Source of the DNA: Sphingobacteriaceae bacterium
GTDB lineage: Bacteria; Bacteroidota; Bacteroidia; B-17B0; Aurantibacillaceae
Assembly: GCA_002319075.1 (NCBI GenBank)
Contig: NVQB01000001.1
Span: forward strand, 2,170,001-2,234,000
Direction: 5' to 3'
Length of the DNA stretch: 64,000 nucleotides
Shown: piece after piece, positions 27,070-37,871 of the stretch
Numbering within the stretch: the stretch's first letter is position 1
Layout of the letters: every line of letters begins with the position of its first letter
Program-made: the position numbers and the translations under genes
Notes under the pieces: generated by a model
The model's input: the letters and a program-made list of their open reading frames with translations, nothing else
Database searches by the model: none
What the model was told of the DNA's origin: nothing

Positions 27070-29763
27070 ATGGCAAAAACCCGCATAGGAATTATTTTCG
27101 GAGGACAGAGTAAAGAGCGTGAAATATCATTTGCCGGCGGTAGAACCGTGTACGACAATTTAAACAAATCTCTTTTTGAAGCAGTGCCTGTTTTCGTAGA
27201 CAGCTTCGGAAATTTTATTGAACTGAATTGGGAATTTATTTACAAAGGTACCGTTCGTGATTTTTATCCTCCTGTTGAGTTTTTACCATCAGGCTCATCT
27301 TTTCAATTGTATGCTGAAAATTTAGGCAACTTAGATGAGAGACAACAAACTACCCTGATTGAAAAAATTGGAAAAAAATTAAGTCTTTCTGATCTTAAAC
27401 ACAAAATTGATTTTGCTTTTTTATGTCTTCATGGCCCGTATGGCGAGGACGGCCGCATACAAGGCCTTTTTGAATTCAATCATATTCCTTACAGCGGTTC
27501 CGGAATTTTAGCCTCTGCTATTGGCATTGACAAAGCAGTGCAAAAAGAAATGATGGTAAACAAAGGGTTTAATAGTCCAAACTACATTACCATTAAAAGA
27601 AACGATTGGATAGACGGCACTTCAAAAAATACTTTTAAAACTGTTAAAGAAAAGATCGGATTTCCCTGCGTTGTGAAACCTGCAAATCAAGGGTCCAGTA
27701 TTGGCGTGAGTATATTAAATTCAGAAAACGAGCTGGAATTTATGATTGCCGTTGAAAAAGCGCTTTTTACAAGATGGCTCGATGCTAAGGAATGGCAGGC
27801 ACTTTCGGCAGCACAAAAACATGATTTGGTAAAAAGTCTCGCTGACATTCGCGAAGGTATCGGTATGCCTTTGATGATTAGTCATCCTAAAGAACTAAAT
27901 GCTCCGGTAATTTATGATCCAAATGAGTTGATCAGATATTTAGATGCAAATTTAAAAACCGAGGGATTTGTTGTTGAAAGTTTAGACGGGGAAAGCACTG
28001 TTTTAGTAGAAGGCTTTATTGAAGGAAAAGAATTTAGTTGTATTGTTCTCGAAGACGAACATGGCAAAGCAATCGCTTTACCGCCAACGGAGATTCGCAA
28101 AGGCAAAGAATTATTTGACTACCGTAGTAAATATTTGCCAGGCTTATCGCGTAAGATCACTCCGATTGATATTCCGGATGAGCAAATTGAAGCCATTCGC
28201 AAAGAGTGCGAGAAACTATTTTACGACTTACATTTTGATGTCTATGCACGTATAGATGGTTTTTTAAGCACAGACGGAAAAATATTTTTGAATGATCCGA
28301 ACACTACAAGTGGGATGATGCCTTCATCGTTTTTCTTTCATCAGGCAGCGGAGATCGGCCTAAATCCCTCTCAATTTCTAACTTTCATCATTCGAACTTC
28401 TCTTTCAAAAAGAAGTATTCAGTCGAAGGGAAATGTCACTTACAAAAAACTGCTGACGAACTTAGACGAGGCTATTATAAAAGACAAAAATGCGTTAGGT
28501 CACAAAACCCGCGTAGCTGTAATTCTTGGAGGTTATTCTTCTGAACGTCATATTTCCGTTGAAAGCGGAAGAAATGTTTTTGAAAAATTAGCATCTTCTG
28601 AAAAATATGCTCCGTTTCCTGTTTTTTTAACCGGTGATAATTCTGCTCATCAATTGTATCACATTCCTATTAATTTACTATTAAAGGACAATGCAGATGA
28701 CATAAAAGAAAAGGCAGAACATTTTAAGGTGCATCCGGTGATAAATAAAATAATGAATGAGTGCGCTGAAATTACTAATAAATATGCGGCTGCAAATCAT
28801 ACACTTTCTCCCGAAAAATTATCCTTTGAAAGTTTAAAAGAAAAATCAGACGAAGTGTTCATCGCCCTTCACGGACGCCCTGGCGAAGACGGAGCAATAC
28901 AGGAAAAGCTGGATGCGATTGGACTTCCCTATAATGGTTCGAGCAAAGAAAGTTCCTCTATAACTATTGACAAGTACCGCACCAATGAAATTCTAAAAAA
29001 CAACGGATTTCTTGTTGCAGAACATATTCTAATTACTAAAGACGATTGGCATTTTAATAAAGGTAAATTCGTTGAGCTCCTTCAGGATAAAATAAAATAT
29101 CCTTTCATTGCTAAACCGGTTGATGATGGTTGTAGCAGCGCAGTGAAAAAAATAAAAACATTAGAAGAGTTCGAAGCCTTTTGCACATTGATCTTCAGAG
29201 CCACTGAAGATTTTGATTCAGCAGCAGCGAATACTTTAAACATTAAACCCAAAGAAGAATTTCCTCAAAAACAAGTGGTGCTTGTAGAAGAACTCATCAG
29301 TAAAAAAGATGCAGATCACTTTTTGGAAATTACGGGTGGCATGTTGACGCGTTACAATAGAAACGGAGAACTCGAGTACGAAGTTTTCGAAGCTTCAGAA
29401 GCTTTAGCAGATGGAGAAATTTTAAGTCTCGAAGAAAAATTCTTAGCAGGACAAGGTCAGAATATCACTCCTGCGCGTTATGCAAAATCCGCAAGTGACC
29501 GTCAGAAAGTAAGCGACCAGGTGAAGGCTGCATTGGGCGGTGCTGCGAAAGTTCTGGGAGTAACCGGGTATTGCCGCATAGATGCCTTCGTTCGTGTTTA
29601 TAAAGATTGCAGTGCTGAAATTATTTTCATCGAAGTTAATTCATTACCGGGCATGACTCCTGCTACATGCATTTTTCATCAGGCTGCCATTAACGACTAT
29701 AAACCTTACGAGTTTATAGATAACATTCTTGACTTTGGTAAAAAACGTCTAGCAACCGTTTAA
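27070..29763 (+). CDS. Fused tandem D-Ala-D-Ala-ligase-like ATP-grasp protein
   Basis: 897 residues made of two Ddl-like ligases in tandem; a usual Ddl has 300-370. Unit 1 (about 1-460) has GGQSKEREIS, LHGPYGEDGRIQG, KPANQGSSIGVS, FDYRSKYLPG and YARIDGFL, but its metal motif is NDPNTTSGM where Ddl has E-x-N-T-x-P-G-M. Unit 2 (about 478-897) has GGYSSERHIS, LHGRPGEDGAIQ and a standard FIEVNSLPGMT, but KPVDDGCSSAV replaces the Gly-Ser-Ser loop and Phe replaces the conserved Tyr in EEKFLAG. Each unit thus departs at different active-site positions. Ligation of two amino acids or similar is likely; D-Ala-D-Ala specificity is not assured. Monocistronic. Confidence 0.88.
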   Translation: MAKTRIGIIFGGQSKEREISFAGGRTVYDNLNKSLFEAVPVFVDSFGNFIELNWEFIYKGTVRDFYPPVEFLPSGSSFQLYAENLGNLDERQQTTLIEKIGKKLSLSDLKHKIDFAFLCLHGPYGEDGRIQGLFEFNHIPYSGSGILASAIGIDKAVQKEMMVNKGFNSPNYITIKRNDWIDGTSKNTFKTVKEKIGFPCVVKPANQGSSIGVSILNSENELEFMIAVEKALFTRWLDAKEWQALSAAQKHDLVKSLADIREGIGMPLMISHPKELNAPVIYDPNELIRYLDANLKTEGFVVESLDGESTVLVEGFIEGKEFSCIVLEDEHGKAIALPPTEIRKGKELFDYRSKYLPGLSRKITPIDIPDEQIEAIRKECEKLFYDLHFDVYARIDGFLSTDGKIFLNDPNTTSGMMPSSFFFHQAAEIGLNPSQFLTFIIRTSLSKRSIQSKGNVTYKKLLTNLDEAIIKDKNALGHKTRVAVILGGYSSERHISVESGRNVFEKLASSEKYAPFPVFLTGDNSAHQLYHIPINLLLKDNADDIKEKAEHFKVHPVINKIMNECAEITNKYAAANHTLSPEKLSFESLKEKSDEVFIALHGRPGEDGAIQEKLDAIGLPYNGSSKESSSITIDKYRTNEILKNNGFLVAEHILITKDDWHFNKGKFVELLQDKIKYPFIAKPVDDGCSSAVKKIKTLEEFEAFCTLIFRATEDFDSAAANTLNIKPKEEFPQKQVVLVEELISKKDADHFLEITGGMLTRYNRNGELEYEVFEASEALADGEILSLEEKFLAGQGQNITPARYAKSASDRQKVSDQVKAALGGAAKVLGVTGYCRIDAFVRVYKDCSAEIIFIEVNSLPGMTPATCIFHQAAINDYKPYEFIDNILDFGKKRLATV

Positions 29764-29824
29764 AAATCTCTTAAATTTCTTCGGGCACATCCTTTGCAGG
29801 ATTACCTTGAATTTATCTGTAGAA

Positions 29825-30397
29825 ATGGAAAAAGAAAGTTTACTTAAATTATTTATGGTAATGATCGGCTGTAGACCAAAAGGCAGGCTTACCGAGCAGC
29901 ACGATATTTTTTTCGGGATTGCAGAATCAATGAAAGAATTAATTCCACACATGAACGCTTTTTGGCCGGAAGCAAAAGGAAATATTCATGTAGACGCTTA
30001 TCGTGAAGTCACCTTTGTAAACGGCTACAGTATTAAAGTACTCCCAAAAACAAATGAGAAAAAAAATGCTTCTCCAGAAAATTTATTTTTCCTGAATCTC
30101 GGTGGTTACAAAGTAAACGAGTTTGAGGAGTTTCATTACAAAGTCCTTGCAGTATCAGAGACCTCCGGAGAGGCCATTCAGCAAGCTAAACAAACGGCTT
30201 TCTATAAACATTTCGGATTTAAAGGAGCCACTTCACACATCGATGACAAATACGGCGTAGATGTAGATAATATCTATAGGATTACCGATATTCTAAATTC
30301 GTTTTTTAAAGAGCGTTATTCTTTGCAGATCACTAAAGAAGAAAGTCCTGAAGATCTACTTCATATTGGCTACTTCCCGCTTAAAAAACTTACTTAA
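29825..30397 (+). CDS. DUF1543 protein
   Basis: 190 residues from ATG 29825 (a TTG six codons upstream is less likely). It contains two alpha/beta units of the DUF1543 type: LLKLFMVMIGCRPKGRLTEQ with HDIFFGIAES, and later LFFLNLGGYKVNEFEEFHY with AVSETSGEAIQQAKQT. Function unknown. It follows the double ligase by 61 bp on the same strand and may be co-transcribed with it. Its 3' end overlaps the convergent argH by 8 nt. Confidence 0.8.
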   Translation: MEKESLLKLFMVMIGCRPKGRLTEQHDIFFGIAESMKELIPHMNAFWPEAKGNIHVDAYREVTFVNGYSIKVLPKTNEKKNASPENLFFLNLGGYKVNEFEEFHYKVLAVSETSGEAIQQAKQTAFYKHFGFKGATSHIDDKYGVDVDNIYRITDILNSFFKERYSLQITKEESPEDLLHIGYFPLKKLT

Positions 30398-31694
30398 GAA
30401 TTTTATCACTTAATATAGAGAAGCGCTCTGCAATTTCTTTGTTACATAAATTATGAATACTTCCTTCGTGTGTGTGATGAATTTCTTTAGTAAATTCAAA
30501 AGTAGTACTTGCAATGTCGGCTCCTACCTTTTGGTAAGCTTCTCTGAACGAAAGTCCTTCTGTCACTAGTTGATTAACGGCTTCCACACTGAAAATAAAT
30601 TTATATTTTTCTTCCTTTACACTGCTTTCGTTAACATGAATTTCCTTTAACATGTTCACAGAAGCCTGCAAACAGGCCTGCAATTCTCTGAAGGCAGGAA
30701 ACAGCATTTCTTTTGTCAATTGAAGATCGCGGTGATACCCGGAAGGTAAATTGCTTAATAATAAAGTAAATTCATTTGGTAGAGCTTGCAGACGATTACA
30801 TTTGCCGCGTATCAATTCAAAAACATCCGGATTCTTTTTGTGTGGCATAATACTGCTACCCGTTGTTAATGCATCGGGAAAAGAAACAAAACCAAAATTC
30901 TGCGAATTATACAAACAGATATCCATAGCAAGCTTAGAAAGTGTTGCCGCTATGCTTGCCAAAGCTGTCGCAGTAATTTTCTCACTTTTACCCCTTGTCA
31001 TTTGCGCATAAACAACATTGTAATTCATGCCTTCAAAATGCATAAGCTCCGTTGTAAGAGTTCTATTAATCGGTAGAGATCCGCCATATCCCGCACCGGA
31101 TCCTAAAGGATTTTTATTCGCCACATTATAAGCCGCAATTACAAGCTCCATATCGTCGCAAAGACTTTCTGCATAAGCGCCAAACCAGAGTCCGAATGAA
31201 GAAGGCATTGCGGCTTGTAAATGCGTATACCCTGGAATTAAAATGGCTTTATATTCTTCGCTCTTTTTCTGAAGTAAATTAAAAAGCTCCCCTACCAGAA
31301 GACTTGTTTTTTTTAGTTGGGCCAAAGAGTATAATTTTATATCCGTCAAAACCTGGTCGTTGCGCGAACGCGCGGAATGAATTTTTTTTCCCACGTCTCC
31401 AAGCTTCCTGGTCAATAAAATTTCAACTTGAGAATGTACATCCTCCACTCCTTCTTCAATTATAAACCCGCCCTTTCTTATGATTACTGCAATCTCTTTC
31501 AGCTCCTTTTCCAGTGCGGTAAACTCATCTGCTGAAAGTAAGCCAACTTTCGAAAGCATTTCTGCATGGGCCAAAGAACCTGTTACATCAAACTCTGCCA
31601 ATTCCAAATCCAGCAACTGGTCATTACCAGCTGTAAAATCCATCAACCACTGCGGCGTAGTACTATTCTCTTTTTCCCAAAGTTTAGTTTTCAT
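30390..31694 (-). CDS. argH: Argininosuccinate lyase
   Basis: Last step of arginine synthesis: splits argininosuccinate into arginine and fumarate. The 434 residues show the fumarase/lyase superfamily signature GSSIMPHKKNPDVFELIRGK and the SARSRNDQVLTD segment. Length is typical. Last gene of the eight-gene arg operon; its start overlaps the previous stop by 11 nt. Confidence 0.96.
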   Translation of the reverse strand: MKTKLWEKENSTTPQWLMDFTAGNDQLLDLELAEFDVTGSLAHAEMLSKVGLLSADEFTALEKELKEIAVIIRKGGFIIEEGVEDVHSQVEILLTRKLGDVGKKIHSARSRNDQVLTDIKLYSLAQLKKTSLLVGELFNLLQKKSEEYKAILIPGYTHLQAAMPSSFGLWFGAYAESLCDDMELVIAAYNVANKNPLGSGAGYGGSLPINRTLTTELMHFEGMNYNVVYAQMTRGKSEKITATALASIAATLSKLAMDICLYNSQNFGFVSFPDALTTGSSIMPHKKNPDVFELIRGKCNRLQALPNEFTLLLSNLPSGYHRDLQLTKEMLFPAFRELQACLQASVNMLKEIHVNESSVKEEKYKFIFSVEAVNQLVTEGLSFREAYQKVGADIASTTFEFTKEIHHTHEGSIHNLCNKEIAERFSILSDKILK

Positions 31695-32784
31695 TTAATT
31701 TATTTAAAATCTTTATATAAATATCAATTCCTTCTTCTATTTCCTTCACATAAATAAATTCGTCGGCACTATGCGAGCGCGCGGACTCGCCAGGCCCCAT
31801 CTTTAAAGAAGGCCATGGCATCAAGGCCTGGTCACTCATAGTTGGCGAACCATAAGTGCCACGGTTTAATTTTATTCCTTCCAAAACAAATGGATGATCT
31901 TTACGAATCTTTGACGGTTGTAAGCGAAACGAACGCGCGGTAATTTCACAAGGCACTCCCTTTTTTATGATCTCAAAAACCTGTTCATTGGTGTAAGCGT
32001 CTGTTGTCCTCACATCCACCGTAAATTCGCAGAGCGCCGGAACAACGTTGTGCTGCTCGCCCGATTTAATTACCGTTACACTCATTTTAATGTCTCCAAG
32101 AATTTCAGATTTCTTAGGGAATTTAAAACTGCTGAACCATTTAATATGTTCAAAAGCTGCGTAAATAGCATTCTGACCTTCATTGCGGGCAGCATGACCA
32201 GCTTTTCCCAGCACTTTACAATCCAACACCATCAAACCTTTTTCTGCGATGGCCATCTGCATTCCCGTAGGCTCTCCCACCACGGCAAAAGCAATTTTTG
32301 GTAAATCTTCGATCAAGGCCGCGATACCATTTGGTCCCGAAATTTCTTCTTCCGCCGTTGCGGCGAAAATAAAATTGTATTTTAATTCCTCCTTTTCATA
32401 AAAAAATAAAAACGCCGCAAGTAACGACACTAAAGGCCCCCCGGCATCATTGCTTCCAAGGCCATATAATTTTCCTTCTTTTATAAATCCTTCATATGGA
32501 TTATTTGTATAACCTGAATTTGGCTTTACAGTATCATGATGAGAATTTAAAAGTATAGTTGGTTTAGCTGCGTTGAAATGTTTATTTCTACACCAAACGT
32601 TATTCAACTTTCGGGTAAGAGAAATGTTTTTATTACTAAGAAATTTTTCAATCAGATCTGCGCTCTCATTCTCCTGCCTGCTAAAAGACGGAATAGAAAT
32701 AAGCTCCTGTAATAACCCTATTACTTCTTCTTTGAGCAGGGGGCCAGCAAGTCCATCATTATTTATAAAGTCGGGTTCCTTCAT
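31684..32784 (-). CDS. argE: M20-family acylornithine deacylase
   Basis: A 366-residue zinc peptidase-family hydrolase that would remove the acyl group from acylcitrulline or acylornithine. Metal-site motifs are NSHHDTV, GLGSNDAGG, ATAEEEISG and the GEPTGMQMA loop, with the dimerisation domain between. The operon contains an acylornithine-type transcarbamylase rather than an ornithine one, so the natural substrate is most likely the acylated citrulline. The first 26 nt overlap the end of argB, and the end overlaps argH. Confidence 0.88.
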   Translation of the reverse strand: MKEPDFINNDGLAGPLLKEEVIGLLQELISIPSFSRQENESADLIEKFLSNKNISLTRKLNNVWCRNKHFNAAKPTILLNSHHDTVKPNSGYTNNPYEGFIKEGKLYGLGSNDAGGPLVSLLAAFLFFYEKEELKYNFIFAATAEEEISGPNGIAALIEDLPKIAFAVVGEPTGMQMAIAEKGLMVLDCKVLGKAGHAARNEGQNAIYAAFEHIKWFSSFKFPKKSEILGDIKMSVTVIKSGEQHNVVPALCEFTVDVRTTDAYTNEQVFEIIKKGVPCEITARSFRLQPSKIRKDHPFVLEGIKLNRGTYGSPTMSDQALMPWPSLKMGPGESARSHSADEFIYVKEIEEGIDIYIKILNKLNEN

Positions 32785-33547
32785 AATCGTTTTTATTCAT
32801 TAGGTTTGGTAGTTTTTCTGCTTTACCAATCTGCACAAAATTAACGCCATTTTCCAATGCCTTAAAAGCATTATCCATTTTGGGAATCATTCCTGCATTG
32901 ATAATTCCTTTATCTTTTAATTCTAAATAATTTTGATGGGTTATTTCTTTAATAACACTTTTTTCATCAGTTATATTTTGAAGGACGCCGTTTTTTTCAA
33001 AACAGTAAATTAACCGCACACTGTAATTTTTAGTTAATGCCATAGCAAGTTCCGACGCAATAGTATCGGCATTTGTATTTAAAAGCTGACCAGATTTATT
33101 ATGTGTGATCGCAGAAAAAACGGGACTTAAATTATGCTCGAGGCAGTTAGAAATAAAACCAGAATTTATTTCATCGATATCTCCAACAAATCCATAATCT
33201 ATTTTCTTAGTCTCGCGTTTATGCGAAACAATACTATTGGCATCTGCTCCCGAAAGTCCAACAGCATTGCAGTTCAGAGCCTGTAGTTTTGCAACAACTG
33301 TCTTGTTAATGTAACCCGCGTAAACCATAGTTACGACCTTCAACGTTTCAGCGTCTGTTACTCTTCGTCCTTCAATCATATTCACTGCAACGCCAAGTTT
33401 TTCCTGTAACTGGTTAGCAAGCTTCCCGCCACCGTGCACAAGAATTTTCTTTCCTGCCAGCAAACTAAAATTTTTCAAAAAAGAAAACAATGCGTTTTCA
33501 TCATCAATAACGTTCCCGCCTATTTTAACTATACTTAGTAATTCCAT
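32759..33547 (-). CDS. argB: Acetylglutamate kinase
   Basis: Second step of arginine synthesis: phosphorylates N-acylglutamate. The 262 residues of the amino-acid kinase fold show VKIGGNVIDD, VHGGGKLANQLQEKLG, NTNADTIASELA and the C-terminal GMIPKMDNAFKALENG. It abuts argF' with no gap. Whether the acyl group is acetyl or succinyl depends on the neighbouring acyltransferase and is not settled by this sequence. Confidence 0.94.
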   Translation of the reverse strand: MELLSIVKIGGNVIDDENALFSFLKNFSLLAGKKILVHGGGKLANQLQEKLGVAVNMIEGRRVTDAETLKVVTMVYAGYINKTVVAKLQALNCNAVGLSGADANSIVSHKRETKKIDYGFVGDIDEINSGFISNCLEHNLSPVFSAITHNKSGQLLNTNADTIASELAMALTKNYSVRLIYCFEKNGVLQNITDEKSVIKEITHQNYLELKDKGIINAGMIPKMDNAFKALENGVNFVQIGKAEKLPNLMNKNDYEGTRLYK

Positions 33548-34543
33548 TTACCTTTGAACCTCTTGATTAAGTTGAACACTGCTCTCTATTTTATAATTGG
33601 TTTCCAGCATCTTTTTTAAAACTGCTTGGGCAGCAAACACTCTGTTCTCAGCTTGTTGAAGAATTAAAGACCTACTGCTGTCTAAAATAGAATCCGGCAC
33701 TTCCACATTCCTTCTTACAGGCAAACAATGCATAACTTTAGCGTTGTTAGTTGCTTTCATTTTAGTTTCACTCAAAAGCCAATCGCCTTTTACTTCGGGC
33801 ATCATGCCGTACTCCTCATAAGACGACCAGTTTTTCACATAAACGAAATCGGCGTCTTTAAGCGCTTCCTCCTGATTATGGATAACTTTCGTTTGCTTGG
33901 TGAACTCTACAGATAAGTTATATCCTTCCGGATTCGTGATAACGAAATCTACTTCACGCGTCTGAATCCATTCGCAAAAAGAATTACTCACAGCTTGCGG
34001 TAAGGGTTTAATATGGGGGGCCCAGGTTAAAACAACTTTAGGCTTTTTACCGGCAGGTCGGTTTTCCTCTATAGTGATCATGTCCGCCAGACTTTGCAAG
34101 GGGTGACGCGTGCCTGACTCAAGACTAATTAAGGGTTTGTTGCAATACTTCATAAACTGAAGTAAAATTTTCTCACTGTAATCTTCCTGCTGATCCTTTA
34201 ATCCAGGAAAACAACGCAAAGCAATGATATCGCAATATGAGCCAATAACAGCCGCCGCATCTTTAATATGCTCTACCGAAGTTCCGTTCATGATAGCGCC
34301 TTCATTGTACTCCAAAGCCCAACCTTCCTGGTTGATATTTATAACCATAGTATTCATGCCAAGATTTTGCGCCGCTTTTTGTGTGCTTAAGCGTGTACGC
34401 AGACTAGGATTCATAAAAACAATTCCTATTGTTTTATGTTTGCCCATATTCTCGTGAGCGAAAGGATTTGCTTTTAATTCAAGAGCTTCTGAAATCAAAG
34501 TGCTTGAATCTTGTATATCATATACTGTAGTGAAATACTTCAT
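33548..34543 (-). CDS. argF': N-acylornithine carbamoyltransferase
   Basis: Transfers a carbamoyl group to acylated ornithine. The 331 residues have the carbamoyl-phosphate loop NPSLRTRLSTQKAA (about 45-58), TRHPLQSLADM and the C-terminal MHCLPVRRNVEV. The LPVRRNVEV segment and the WALEYNEGAIMNG loop identify the acylornithine branch, not ordinary ornithine transcarbamylase. At the position reported to decide acetyl (Glu) versus succinyl (Pro) preference this protein has Val90 (GTSVEH). Adjacent genes abut on both sides. Confidence 0.92.
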   Translation of the reverse strand: MKYFTTVYDIQDSSTLISEALELKANPFAHENMGKHKTIGIVFMNPSLRTRLSTQKAAQNLGMNTMVININQEGWALEYNEGAIMNGTSVEHIKDAAAVIGSYCDIIALRCFPGLKDQQEDYSEKILLQFMKYCNKPLISLESGTRHPLQSLADMITIEENRPAGKKPKVVLTWAPHIKPLPQAVSNSFCEWIQTREVDFVITNPEGYNLSVEFTKQTKVIHNQEEALKDADFVYVKNWSSYEEYGMMPEVKGDWLLSETKMKATNNAKVMHCLPVRRNVEVPDSILDSSRSLILQQAENRVFAAQAVLKKMLETNYKIESSVQLNQEVQR

Positions 34544-35686
34544 TTAGTTAACTTGTAATTGTTGTTGTAAAATCTTGCTTATAGCGTTTAGAAAAGTTTC
34601 TATCTCTGCTTTCCCAATGTTTAGCGGCGGAAGCAGACGGATAGTATTTTTTCCAGATGAAAAGCCAGTAAATACTTTTTCTTCGTCTAGAAGTTTTTTG
34701 CGGATTGAAGACGCGTCGCCTTCTGTTTCAATACCTATCATTAGTCCAAGGCCACGCACCTCTTTAATTCCGTCTATCTTCCTAAGCCCTTCCATTAAAA
34801 GGGTTCCGGCCTCTTCAGCGTTTTTAATAAGACCTTCATTCTGCATAACTTCTAAAACCGAAAGCGAAGCTGCACAGGCCAGGTAATTTCCGCCGAAAGT
34901 TGTTCCCAACATACCATGTTTTGCTTTTATGTTTGGGTTAATCAATACACCTGCCACCGGAAAGCCATTACCCATGCCTTTTGCAGTAGTAACTATATCC
35001 GCTTTTATATCTGAATGTTGATGCGCGAAAAATTTCCCACTTCTGCCATAACCCGATTGTATTTCGTCAAGGATTAAAATGGTGCCTGATTTTTTACAAG
35101 CTTCTTCCACTACTTTTAAAAAATTTGTAGTAGGAATATTTATACCTCCAACTCCTTGAATGCCCTCCACAATCACTGCACAAATGGTTTCGTCTATTGC
35201 GTTTAAGAAAACATTTGTATCATTTAAGGGTAAAAAAACTGTTTCATGATCTTTATTAATGTTAGCGGAGAGTTTAGCATCGTCTGTAGCACCTAAAGAT
35301 AATGAGGTACGACCGTGAAAAGAATCCCTGAACGCAATTACTTTTTTTCTGCCATTATGGAAAGATGCGAGTTTTAATGCGTTTTCATTTGCTTCGGTTC
35401 CAGAATTACACAAAAATAAATTGTAATCTACATAGCCACTTTGTGCTCCTAATTTTTCTGCCAGCAAATTTTGTGAAGGCATTTTAACGGCGTTAGAATA
35501 AAAAGCAATTTGATTTAATTGTTCATTCAAAGCCTTTACATAATGAGGATGCGAATGTCCGATGGAAATCACAGCATGTCCACCATACAGGTCGAGGTAT
35601 TTTGTCCCTTGCTCATCCCAGATATAAGAGCCCTGGGCTTTTACGGGGGTGATGTTGAATAATGGATAAACGTCGAATAAATTCAT
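34544..35686 (-). CDS. argD: Acetylornithine aminotransferase
   Basis: PLP-dependent class III aminotransferase that converts N-acyl-glutamate semialdehyde to N-acylornithine. The 380 residues contain FLCNSGTEANENALKLA, DEIQSGYGRSGKF and the PLP-lysine segment VTTAKGMGNGFPVA. Length and motif order are standard. It lies 11 bp after argC. Confidence 0.95.
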   Translation of the reverse strand: MNLFDVYPLFNITPVKAQGSYIWDEQGTKYLDLYGGHAVISIGHSHPHYVKALNEQLNQIAFYSNAVKMPSQNLLAEKLGAQSGYVDYNLFLCNSGTEANENALKLASFHNGRKKVIAFRDSFHGRTSLSLGATDDAKLSANINKDHETVFLPLNDTNVFLNAIDETICAVIVEGIQGVGGINIPTTNFLKVVEEACKKSGTILILDEIQSGYGRSGKFFAHQHSDIKADIVTTAKGMGNGFPVAGVLINPNIKAKHGMLGTTFGGNYLACAASLSVLEVMQNEGLIKNAEEAGTLLMEGLRKIDGIKEVRGLGLMIGIETEGDASSIRKKLLDEEKVFTGFSSGKNTIRLLPPLNIGKAEIETFLNAISKILQQQLQVN

Positions 35687-35697
35687 TTTTTTAAATA

Positions 35698-36681
35698 TTA
35701 ATAGTTAATTGCTTTTAGTTTTAATCCCGCTTGTTCTTCGAATCCAAACATCAGGTTCATATTCTGAACTGCCTGCCCGGCTGCTCCTTTCAATAAATTG
35801 TCGATCACACTTGTTACCAAAACGTAACGTCCATTCTTTTTAACATCAATAAAACACTTGTTCGTATTCACCGCCATTTTCATATCTACAGTTTTATCTA
35901 CCAAAAAAGTAAATGGATGATTTTCGTAAAATTCTGTAAAAAGATTTTTTATTTCTGCTTCTGAAAGATCACTTTCCAGAACGGTAGTAGCCAAAATGCC
36001 TCTTGCAAAATTTCCTCTTTGTGGAATGAATAAAAATTCGCCATCGAAGCTTTGTTGCAGTTGCTTTAAACTTTCCTGTATCTCAAAATTATGTGCGTGC
36101 TCAAACGCCTGGTAAACAGAAATATTATTTTGTCTCCATGAAAAGTGAGTGGTGTCTGAAAGCTTTATGCCTGCTCCCGTTGAACCGGTAATAGCATTTA
36201 CCTGAATTGTTCCTTTCAATAAATTATTATGAGCAAAAGGTAAAATCGCTAACTGAATCGCCGTTGCAAAACAACCTGGATTCGCAATGTAATTGGCCGA
36301 TTTAATTTTTTCTTTGTTTAACTCCGGCAGACCATAAATAAACTGACCACTTGCTACAGTATTGTTAGAAATCAATCTGAAGTCACGACTCAGATCAATA
36401 ATTTTACTCTTTAGTAAATCAGGATTTGTTTTCAAATAAGAAGCCGAGTCGCCATGTTGAAGACACAAAAAAACAAGATCAGAATTTTTAGACGCCTTAT
36501 CTGAAAACAAAAGATCAGTTTCTCCGGCCAGATCTGTGAAGACGTCGCTTACTCTCTTGCCCTGTTGTGATTGACTTACCGCGCAAAGAGAATTCACTGC
36601 CGGATGATTAACGAGTAATCTTACCAGTTCGCCACCTGTGTATCCTGCCGCGCCAATAACGGTAACATTTACTTTTTTCAT
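35698..36681 (-). CDS. argC: N-acetyl-gamma-glutamyl-phosphate reductase
   Basis: NADPH-dependent third step of the pathway. The 327 residues show the nucleotide-binding IGAAGYTGGELVRLL and the catalytic cysteine Cys137 in NPGCFATAIQLA. The start overlaps the argG stop by 4 nt (ATGA). Confidence 0.96.
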   Translation of the reverse strand: MKKVNVTVIGAAGYTGGELVRLLVNHPAVNSLCAVSQSQQGKRVSDVFTDLAGETDLLFSDKASKNSDLVFLCLQHGDSASYLKTNPDLLKSKIIDLSRDFRLISNNTVASGQFIYGLPELNKEKIKSANYIANPGCFATAIQLAILPFAHNNLLKGTIQVNAITGSTGAGIKLSDTTHFSWRQNNISVYQAFEHAHNFEIQESLKQLQQSFDGEFLFIPQRGNFARGILATTVLESDLSEAEIKNLFTEFYENHPFTFLVDKTVDMKMAVNTNKCFIDVKKNGRYVLVTSVIDNLLKGAAGQAVQNMNLMFGFEEQAGLKLKAINY

Positions 36682-37871
36682 TGTACTGAATTAATCTGGT
36701 GGTAAATGCTCATTTGATTGCTCATGATTTTCGTAAACCCTTTCACATCTTGTCCGCTCCAGGTATTATTCATCTCGCCATAGCTTCCAAATTTGTTGCT
36801 CATCAGGTCATGTGCCGATTCAATTCCAACAATTGAAAAATTATAGGGCGAGAATTTTACGAAAACTTTTCCAGTCACATTTTTTTGTGTCGATTCGAAA
36901 AAACACTCTAAATCGCGCATCACAGGATCTAAAAACAAACCTTCATGCAGCCAGTTGCCATACCACATAGATTGTTGATCTTTAATGATCAATTGTAGTT
37001 TTGTAAGAGTGTGTTTTTCCAAAGCATGGTGAGCTTTAATGGTAATAAGGGCTGCGGCGGCCTCAAAACCAACTCTTCCTTTAATACCGATGATCGTATC
37101 TCCAACATGAATATCTCGTCCAATAGCAAAAGGACTCGCTTCTTTTTCCAAAGCCTGGATTGCTAAAGTAGGATGCCCAAAGATTCTTCCGTTGATTCCA
37201 TGCAGTTCACCTTTTTCAAAATAAAGTTCAATATCTTTTTCTCCTGTCTCAGAAAGCTGAGTTGGGTAAGCTAGACCCGGCAAAGAAGAATGCGAGGTAA
37301 GCGTTTCTTTTCCGCCAACAGAAGTTCCCCAGATCCCTTTATTAATGCTGTATTTAGCCTTTTCAGCATTAATGTTGACGCCATTTTTAGCCAGGAAGGC
37401 AATCTCTTCTTCGCGTGATAATTTGTTGTCACGGATGGGAGTTAAAATCTGGATGTTTGGAATCAATATGTTGAACACCGCATCAAATCGCACCTGGTCG
37501 TTTCCTGCGCCTGTACTTCCGTGTGCTACATAATCTGCCTTTAATTTCTTAGCATAATTGGCAATAGCTGTTGCCTGTGAAATGCGTTCTGCGCTCACGG
37601 ATAAAGGATATGTATTGTTCTTTAAAACATTGCCGTAAACCAGATACTTCACAACGCTGTTATAAAAGTTTTTTGTTTCATCCAAACACACAAAAGATTT
37701 TACGCCAAGCGCGCTGGCCTTTGCCTCAATTACTGAAATTTCTTCTGCGTCAAATCCTCCTGTGTTTACAATTACTGCGTGTACCTCAAGATTTAATTCC
37801 TGCGCTAAATAAATTGCGCAATAAGACGTGTCCAGTCCGCCGCTGAAGGCGAGTACCACTGATTTTTTCAT
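36678..37871 (-). CDS. argG: Argininosuccinate synthase
   Basis: Joins citrulline and aspartate using ATP. The 397 residues start with the PP-loop SGGLDTSYCAIYLAQEL and contain HGSTGAGNDQVRFD and NKGIWGTSVGGKE. Its ATG lies 86 nt inside the upstream acyltransferase frame, out of phase with it. Second gene of the arg operon. Confidence 0.96.
   Translation of the reverse strand: MKKSVVLAFSGGLDTSYCAIYLAQELNLEVHAVIVNTGGFDAEEISVIEAKASALGVKSFVCLDETKNFYNSVVKYLVYGNVLKNNTYPLSVSAERISQATAIANYAKKLKADYVAHGSTGAGNDQVRFDAVFNILIPNIQILTPIRDNKLSREEEIAFLAKNGVNINAEKAKYSINKGIWGTSVGGKETLTSHSSLPGLAYPTQLSETGEKDIELYFEKGELHGINGRIFGHPTLAIQALEKEASPFAIGRDIHVGDTIIGIKGRVGFEAAAALITIKAHHALEKHTLTKLQLIIKDQQSMWYGNWLHEGLFLDPVMRDLECFFESTQKNVTGKVFVKFSPYNFSIVGIESAHDLMSNKFGSYGEMNNTWSGQDVKGFTKIMSNQMSIYHQINSVQ

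Follow-up and report, generated by a model that had tools for sequence, protein, structure and literature searches.

The D-Ala-D-Ala ligase (Ddl) is an essential enzyme and a target of D-cycloserine. One gene in the window, the whole 64,000-nucleotide stretch of Sphingobacteriaceae DNA that was analyzed, encodes a protein in which the ligase appears twice, and the question raised by this locus is what a bacterium would do with two Ddl modules in one chain when each of them departs from the usual active site. The original prediction, made from the sequence alone, was that the protein could be an internal heterodimer with a product other than D-Ala-D-Ala, or that one of the units could be regulatory. 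The features of the locus are collected in Table 1.

Table 1. Features of the tandem Ddl locus (positions in the window; residue equivalents from E. coli DdlB)
Feature	Position	Strand	Basis
Tandem Ddl gene	27070..29763	+	Open frame, 897 aa and stop; PF01820 and PF07478 in both halves
Unit 1 (aa 1-449), Ddl module, canonical substrate residues	27070..28416	+	TIGR01205 score, VIA fold match
Linker aa 450-479, predicted mostly helical	28417..28506	+	Low conservation; helix 456-478 in model
Unit 2 (aa 480-897), Ddl module, altered second-substrate residues, all ATP/Mg residues	28507..29760	+	TIGR01205, PRK01372, model
Asp409 replacing DdlB Glu270 (metal ligand), motif D-P-N-T-T-S-G-M	28294..28296	+	Asp in 119/119 tandems; Glu in 20/20 singles
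Ser414 replacing DdlB Pro275	28309..28311	+	Ser in 119/119 tandems; Pro in 20/20 singles
Cys688 replacing DdlB Ser150	29131..29133	+	Cys in 119/119 tandems; Ser in 20/20 singles
Phe791 replacing DdlB Tyr216 (omega loop)	29440..29442	+	Phe in 119/119 tandems; Tyr in 20/20 singles
Thr866 replacing DdlB Ser281	29665..29667	+	Thr in 118/118 readable tandems, 1 gap; Ser in 20/20 singles

Domains and predicted fold

A Pfam analysis agrees with the proposal of two full Ddl-like modules in one 897-residue frame, since a Dala_Dala_lig_N and a Dala_Dala_lig_C domain are found in each half. Over the whole protein, two PF01820 and four PF07478 stretches lie above the cut-off, and each half exceeds the cut-offs when considered separately. 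The NCBIfam model TIGR01205 is more demanding. With a cut-off of 245.65 bits, unit 1 alone scores 241.4 and unit 2 alone 150.6 (155.9 with PRK01372), and the tandem passes at 385.1 only as a sum over both units. As a result, automatic annotation would probably label the tandem as an ordinary Ddl.

The AlphaFold2 model of the whole chain, calculated from 35 sequences, has a mean pLDDT of 83.6. The predicted placement of the two units relative to each other may be regarded as confident (pTM = 0.84), and the segments with a pLDDT below 50 (aa. 346–360, 779–781 and 791–798) correspond to the omega-loop regions of both units. A VIA comparison of the full-length model covers unit 1, which matched the Ddl of S. 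aureus (PDB: 7u9k_B, Z = 35.4, rmsd 2.5, 325 aligned). Unit 2 was folded separately (pLDDT = 82.2) and matched a second Ddl structure (PDB: 3i12_A, Z = 28.9, rmsd 3.5, 321 aligned). Both predicted models belong to the Ddl fold. In a sequence search of the PDB, the top match of unit 2 was 1iow_A, an entry whose title names DdlB with the Y216F mutation, with a lead of about 1 bit over the next rows.

That one half is a degraded pseudogene was considered and ruled out by the equal conservation of the units (a mean across 119 tandem proteins of 0.72 for unit 1 and 0.73 for unit 2, with 0.42 for aa. 450–480) and by a frame that contains no stop in the window. A scan for promoters and terminators returned nothing beyond the level of shuffles.

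Active-site residues of the two units

Each unit was aligned to E. coli DdlB, with the sequence taken from K-12, and residues are numbered accordingly. The substitutions first noticed by eye reappear in this alignment: Asp for the metal-binding Glu and Ser for Pro in unit 1 (Asp409 and Ser414), together with Cys in the Gly-Ser-Ser loop and Phe for Tyr in unit 2 (Cys688 and Phe791). Unit 2 also presents Thr866 in place of Ser281 and Ala691 in place of Gly153, both of which extend the original list; position 691 is Ala in 115 of the 119 tandems and Gly in the other four.

Unit 1 retains E15, K97, K144, S150, E187, K215, Y216, R255, D257, N272 and S281, and exceptions at these positions are few (for instance, K144 is Arg in a single tandem out of 119). 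In unit 2, the metal motif is the canonical E-x-N-x-x-P-G-M, the ATP and metal residues that were checked are invariant among the 119 tandems and the omega loop is strongly conserved. The full catalytic set of E15, S150, Y216, R255, D257, E270, N272 and S281 is therefore complete in neither unit, as unit 1 lacks E270 (Asp) and unit 2 lacks S150, Y216 and S281; the rest are retained.

Canonical Ddl enzymes had been assumed to keep the residues in question, and S150, Y216, E270, P275 and S281 are indeed present in all 20 single Bacteroidia Ddl proteins that were aligned. Had the substitutions been normal in Ddl, they might have been expected in this set; none of the 20 has them. Since the same residues recur at positions 409, 414, 688 and 791 in every one of the 119 tandems, the changes are neither chance nor sequencing error.

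The 119 tandems are mutually below 97% identity, having been reduced from 135 rows by removal of near-copies, with identities to the window protein down to 0.39. The manner in which they were gathered bears on one of the counts. While 56 were picked by a PF01820 match only, 63 came from a contig scan with peptide patterns that include the unit 1 motif, so the latter favor Asp at position 270. The 56 picked by PF01820 have identical residues at the key positions without exception. Six rows that were partial, broken or variant in the search motif were excluded before counting, and these agree at the key residues wherever they are readable.

An unrestricted test was made with the 38 positions that show an invariance of 95% or more among 22 single Ddl proteins (20 from Bacteroidia, and E. 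coli DdlA and DdlB). In 16 tandems, 24 of these positions are kept in both units, five are lost only from unit 2, three only from unit 1, one from both and five are mixed. The losses of unit 1 are S22, A227, E270, P275 and P284, a set that includes none of S150, Y216 and S281. The losses of unit 2 are G74, S150, A166, G185, Y216, S281 and P284, with P284 as the only one of the 38 positions lost from both. These separate sets indicate that the active-site changes are unit-specific: as judged by alignment, unit 1 is changed at its predicted metal motif and unit 2 at its predicted second-substrate pocket. Fixed changes that differ between the units suggest a division of work between the two halves.

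The only Ddl found in the host genome

In the host genome (5.65 Mb, 99.98% complete), PF01820 matches twice, each time within the tandem gene. The separate canonical ddl for which a search had been recommended was thus not found, with no PF01820 match anywhere outside the tandem gene. The other PF07478 matches of the genome fall in different frames. Two of the weaker ones were examined and are not Ddl; one, of 329 aa, is presumably a different ATP-grasp protein and the other we take to be a RimK-like protein. On these grounds, a second ddl elsewhere in the host genome was ruled out.

A MurF above the cut-off lies at 674421–675668 of the host genome, within a 446-aa frame. Outside the window, at G000:C1:2944700-2947051, a MurF-like module is combined with an alanine racemase domain in an 821-aa frame. 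With MurF and an alanine racemase in the genome, the pathway is present and the dipeptide is needed. The genome also has one peptidase M15 gene (G000:C1:1196945-1197496), the product of which could act on D-Ala-D-Ala; peptidase M15 is the Pfam family that includes VanX.

Distribution in the Bacteroidia

The tandem is not a peculiarity of one genome. Exactly two PF01820 matches were found in all 36 of the other genomes sampled from the same genus, mostly within a single frame of some 900 aa and in a few cases in cut or broken frames. At the level of the class, 296 genomes with a minimum completeness of 95 were sampled, of which 125 have two PF01820 matches and 165 have one. The remainder comprises four with a single ddl and a split match, one with a single ddl and a contig-edge fragment (G222) and one with none. 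A genome scored as having one match (G249) has a 652-aa frame that is perhaps a cut tandem. Among the matches listed, both units share one frame as a rule; the two-match frames are about 865–1200 aa long, except where cut by a contig end, and the six exceptions to the one-frame rule that were noticed look contig-end-cut or frame-broken. No genome of the class sample has more than two PF01820 matches, and a tandem and a single Ddl were found together in none of the sampled genomes.

Of 71 families, 35 contain two-match genomes only and 31 contain singles only (one of these includes the empty genome). Five are mixed, namely f42, f51 and f60, along with f48 by virtue of G249 only and f59 by virtue of the G222 fragment only. 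Outside the class, two-match genomes numbered none of 45 in a phylum sample drawn from its other classes. The peptide-pattern scan of contigs returned at least 577 encoding stretches, of which 80 were taken; 78 of these are on record as Bacteroidota and two have no phylum entry. One record is titled Saccharibacteria, and its contig is probably misplaced. Among named strains, Pontibacter ramchanderi LP43 (Hymenobacteraceae) has only two PF01820 matches, which lie in one 916-aa frame.

Evolution and gene neighborhood

A quick tree of 54 rows was calculated from the units of 16 of the 119 tandems and from 22 singles. Unit 1 copies, unit 2 copies and singles each fall on one side of a branch, with SH-aLRT values of 99, 100 and 91, respectively, the value for the singles being below the 95 mark. 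From these three groups, the simplest reading is a single fusion that was inherited whole. The stem of unit 2 is longer than that of unit 1 (2.34 versus 1.35). Three of the six singles of family f51 and two of the four of family f60 were placed in the tree, where they group with E. coli DdlA. Since both families hold both kinds of gene, tandem and single can replace each other.

The suggested search for homologs of the fusion and for their neighbors was productive, yielding the 119 distinct tandems and a recurrent neighbor. A contig end cuts some of the 119 tandem loci; in 48 of the 119, the gene that follows in the same orientation falls in one cluster, an example of which has PASTA domains. 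A similar PASTA-type protein adjoins six single ddl genes out of the 20: four have it downstream and in the same orientation, two have it ahead of ddl in the opposite orientation, and none was seen at the remaining 14. A PASTA-type neighbor common to tandem and single suggests that some genes of both kinds descend from the same ancestral location. In one locus (L147, G320:C5:241000-254000), the tandem continues into a hydrophobic segment and a tail that by eye is PASTA-like, within a 1200-aa frame, as if the ligase were membrane-tethered next to a wall-sensing domain.

At the tandem locus of the window, the PASTA-type neighbor gene is absent. A metallophosphoesterase gene precedes the tandem on the opposite strand, and a DUF1543 gene (29807–30397, + strand) directly follows the tandem on its own strand; the cluster of the DUF1543 protein is likewise placed in eight of the 119 loci. 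Beyond this, a compact run that by eye contains arginine biosynthesis genes occupies the − strand from 30390 to 37871, and its members are presumably argH, an argE-like gene, argB, a carbamoyltransferase gene, argD, argC and argG.

Comparison with known systems

The nearest relative is the single Ddl (PF01820 and PF07478), as in E. coli DdlA and DdlB. Both halves of the tandem share its fold and most of its core residues, no Ddl besides the tandem was found in the host genome, and part of its relatives have neighbors in common with some single ddl genes. It differs in having two modules per chain, each without residues that singles keep and each below the TIGR01205 cut-off when alone. The D-Ala-D-Lac and D-Ala-D-Ser ligases (LmDdl2, VanA, VanG) resemble unit 2, and only unit 2, in a change of the Ser150/Tyr216 pair, by which they are told apart from D-Ala-D-Ala ligases. 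However, PMC7691350 gives Ala at position 150 of LmDdl2, where unit 2 has Cys. Unit 2 also scores far under the corresponding NCBIfam cut-offs (NF000206, 92.8 of 550 bits; NF000207, 78.7 of 520 bits), and those enzymes are an extra Ddl, whereas unit 2 is part of the only one.

Fusions and doubled ATP-grasp proteins provide two further comparisons. The MurC-Ddl fusion (NF011171), which is known from chlamydiae, also carries a Ddl within a longer protein, but its partner is MurC rather than a second Ddl, and the tandem scores 176.2 of 1015 bits against it. The large subunit of carbamoyl-phosphate synthetase has two homologous ATP-grasp halves per chain, as the tandem does, and its halves carry out different steps. 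It is of a different family, to which the tandem has a weak Pfam match (CPSase_L_D2). In the open-access literature of PubMed Central, no paper evidently on a Ddl-Ddl fusion was found. Open-access papers with the phrase "ddl fusion" (PMC12283558, PMC3935232, PMC4803751 and PMC6327494) concern, by their titles, Verrucomicrobium, Chlamydia and a neighborhood method, and none of the residue terms sought in PMC12004154 is present there.

A possible division of labor between the units

The absence of another Ddl, the interchangeability with singles and the neighbors that part of the relatives share with single ddl genes together point to D-Ala-D-Ala synthesis. It is tentatively proposed, with a confidence somewhat short of even, that the host has no D-Ala-D-Ala ligase other than the tandem, in which unit 1 would form the dipeptide and unit 2 would serve as a fixed partner or regulator. 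Two Ddl modules, long diverged, would be locked together by their common chain into a permanent pseudo-dimer. From the residues that are kept and changed, we infer that unit 1 probably forms the dipeptide with Asp409 as a metal ligand. Ser150 and Tyr216 are conserved in Ddl enzymes that make only D-Ala-D-Ala, as stated in PMC7691350, and the presence of both residues in unit 1 gives it the D-Ala-D-Ala signature. Unit 2 appears to have the residues for binding ATP and the first D-Ala. Its second-substrate pocket is remodeled (S150C, Y216F, S281T), such that the standard reaction is probably not performed, and its most likely role would be that of a fixed partner, an ATP- or D-Ala-responsive regulator of unit 1.

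Several observations weigh on the other side of this proposal. The E270D change could weaken unit 1; some other ATP-grasp kinases have Asp where the metal-binding Glu stands, so the change need not kill it. Neither half by itself reaches the TIGR01205 cut-off. The ATP and metal residues of unit 2 and its conserved omega loop seem to exceed what regulation would need and would fit a second catalytic site, and invariant catalytic residues argue against a purely regulatory role.

A rival view is that of a two-product ligase, in which D-Ala-D-Ala would come from unit 1 while unit 2 would be active on another acceptor such as D-lactate, D-serine or glycine, and the cell would then make a dipeptide mixture or a depsipeptide. 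Consistent with this, unit 2 is altered at the Ser150/Tyr216 pair, and DdlB gained weak D-Ala-D-Lac activity with the Y216F and S150A changes, according to PMC7691350. The Y216F DdlB entry as top PDB match of unit 2 points the same way by its lead of about 1 bit, as does the invariance of the checked ATP/Mg residues. The D-Ala-D-Lac and D-Ala-D-Ser scores of unit 2 fall further below their cut-offs than its TIGR01205 score does, a comparison that weighs little because unit 2 misses the D-Ala-D-Ala cut-offs too. No van-type partner was evident in the 25 largest neighbor clusters of the 119 tandems, which were assessed for the most part only by eye. A second ligase activity is considered unlikely, if still a serious contender, and the regulator is preferred, chiefly on the ground that single-Ddl genomes do without a unit 2.

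The roles might instead be reversed, such that unit 2 carries out D-Ala-D-Ala ligation and unit 1 is its impaired partner, given that the canonical E-x-N-x-x-P-G-M motif is present in unit 2 and its Glu and Pro are gone from unit 1. This is improbable, as unit 2 has lost the side chains of Ser150, Tyr216 and Ser281 that all 20 singles keep and is the more diverged half, both in stem length and in TIGR01205 score. A composite catalysis in the manner of carbamoyl-phosphate synthetase, with unit 2 supplying the ATP/metal site and unit 1 the acceptor site of a serial reaction, would account for the unit-specific losses, which coincide at P284 alone of the 38 positions, and for units that occupy one frame as a rule among the two-match genomes listed. 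A free acyl phosphate would need to travel between the sites, however, and unit 1 has an ATP site of its own (K97, K144, D257, N272 and Asp for E270), leaving no clear need for that of unit 2; this arrangement is thought very improbable.

To return to the favored reading of unit 1 as ligase and unit 2 as regulator, it preserves one part of the original prediction. An internal heterodimer or a regulatory unit gains from two units with fixed, unit-specific changes and from the confident two-unit model, which leave the choice between them standing. The other part, a product of the whole protein other than D-Ala-D-Ala, is not supported, since this is the only Ddl found, part of its relatives have neighbors that also adjoin some single ddl genes and singles occur in place of the tandem within the same families.

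Significance

As a widespread double Ddl with fixed, unit-specific changes, the tandem offers a natural experiment on which residues Ddl truly needs and on the cooperation between the two sites of its dimer. It is possible, though doubtful, that in a large part of the Bacteroidia a two-site enzyme replaces the single Ddl and that unit 2 is an active ligase or step, whether for another acceptor or in serial catalysis. To our knowledge, wall-precursor chemistry or control of that two-site kind is known from no Gram-negative bacterium. The tandem raises the question of whether Gram-negative bacteria make wall precursors with a terminus other than D-Ala-D-Ala, and since a named strain, Pontibacter ramchanderi LP43, carries it, these questions may be put to the test now.
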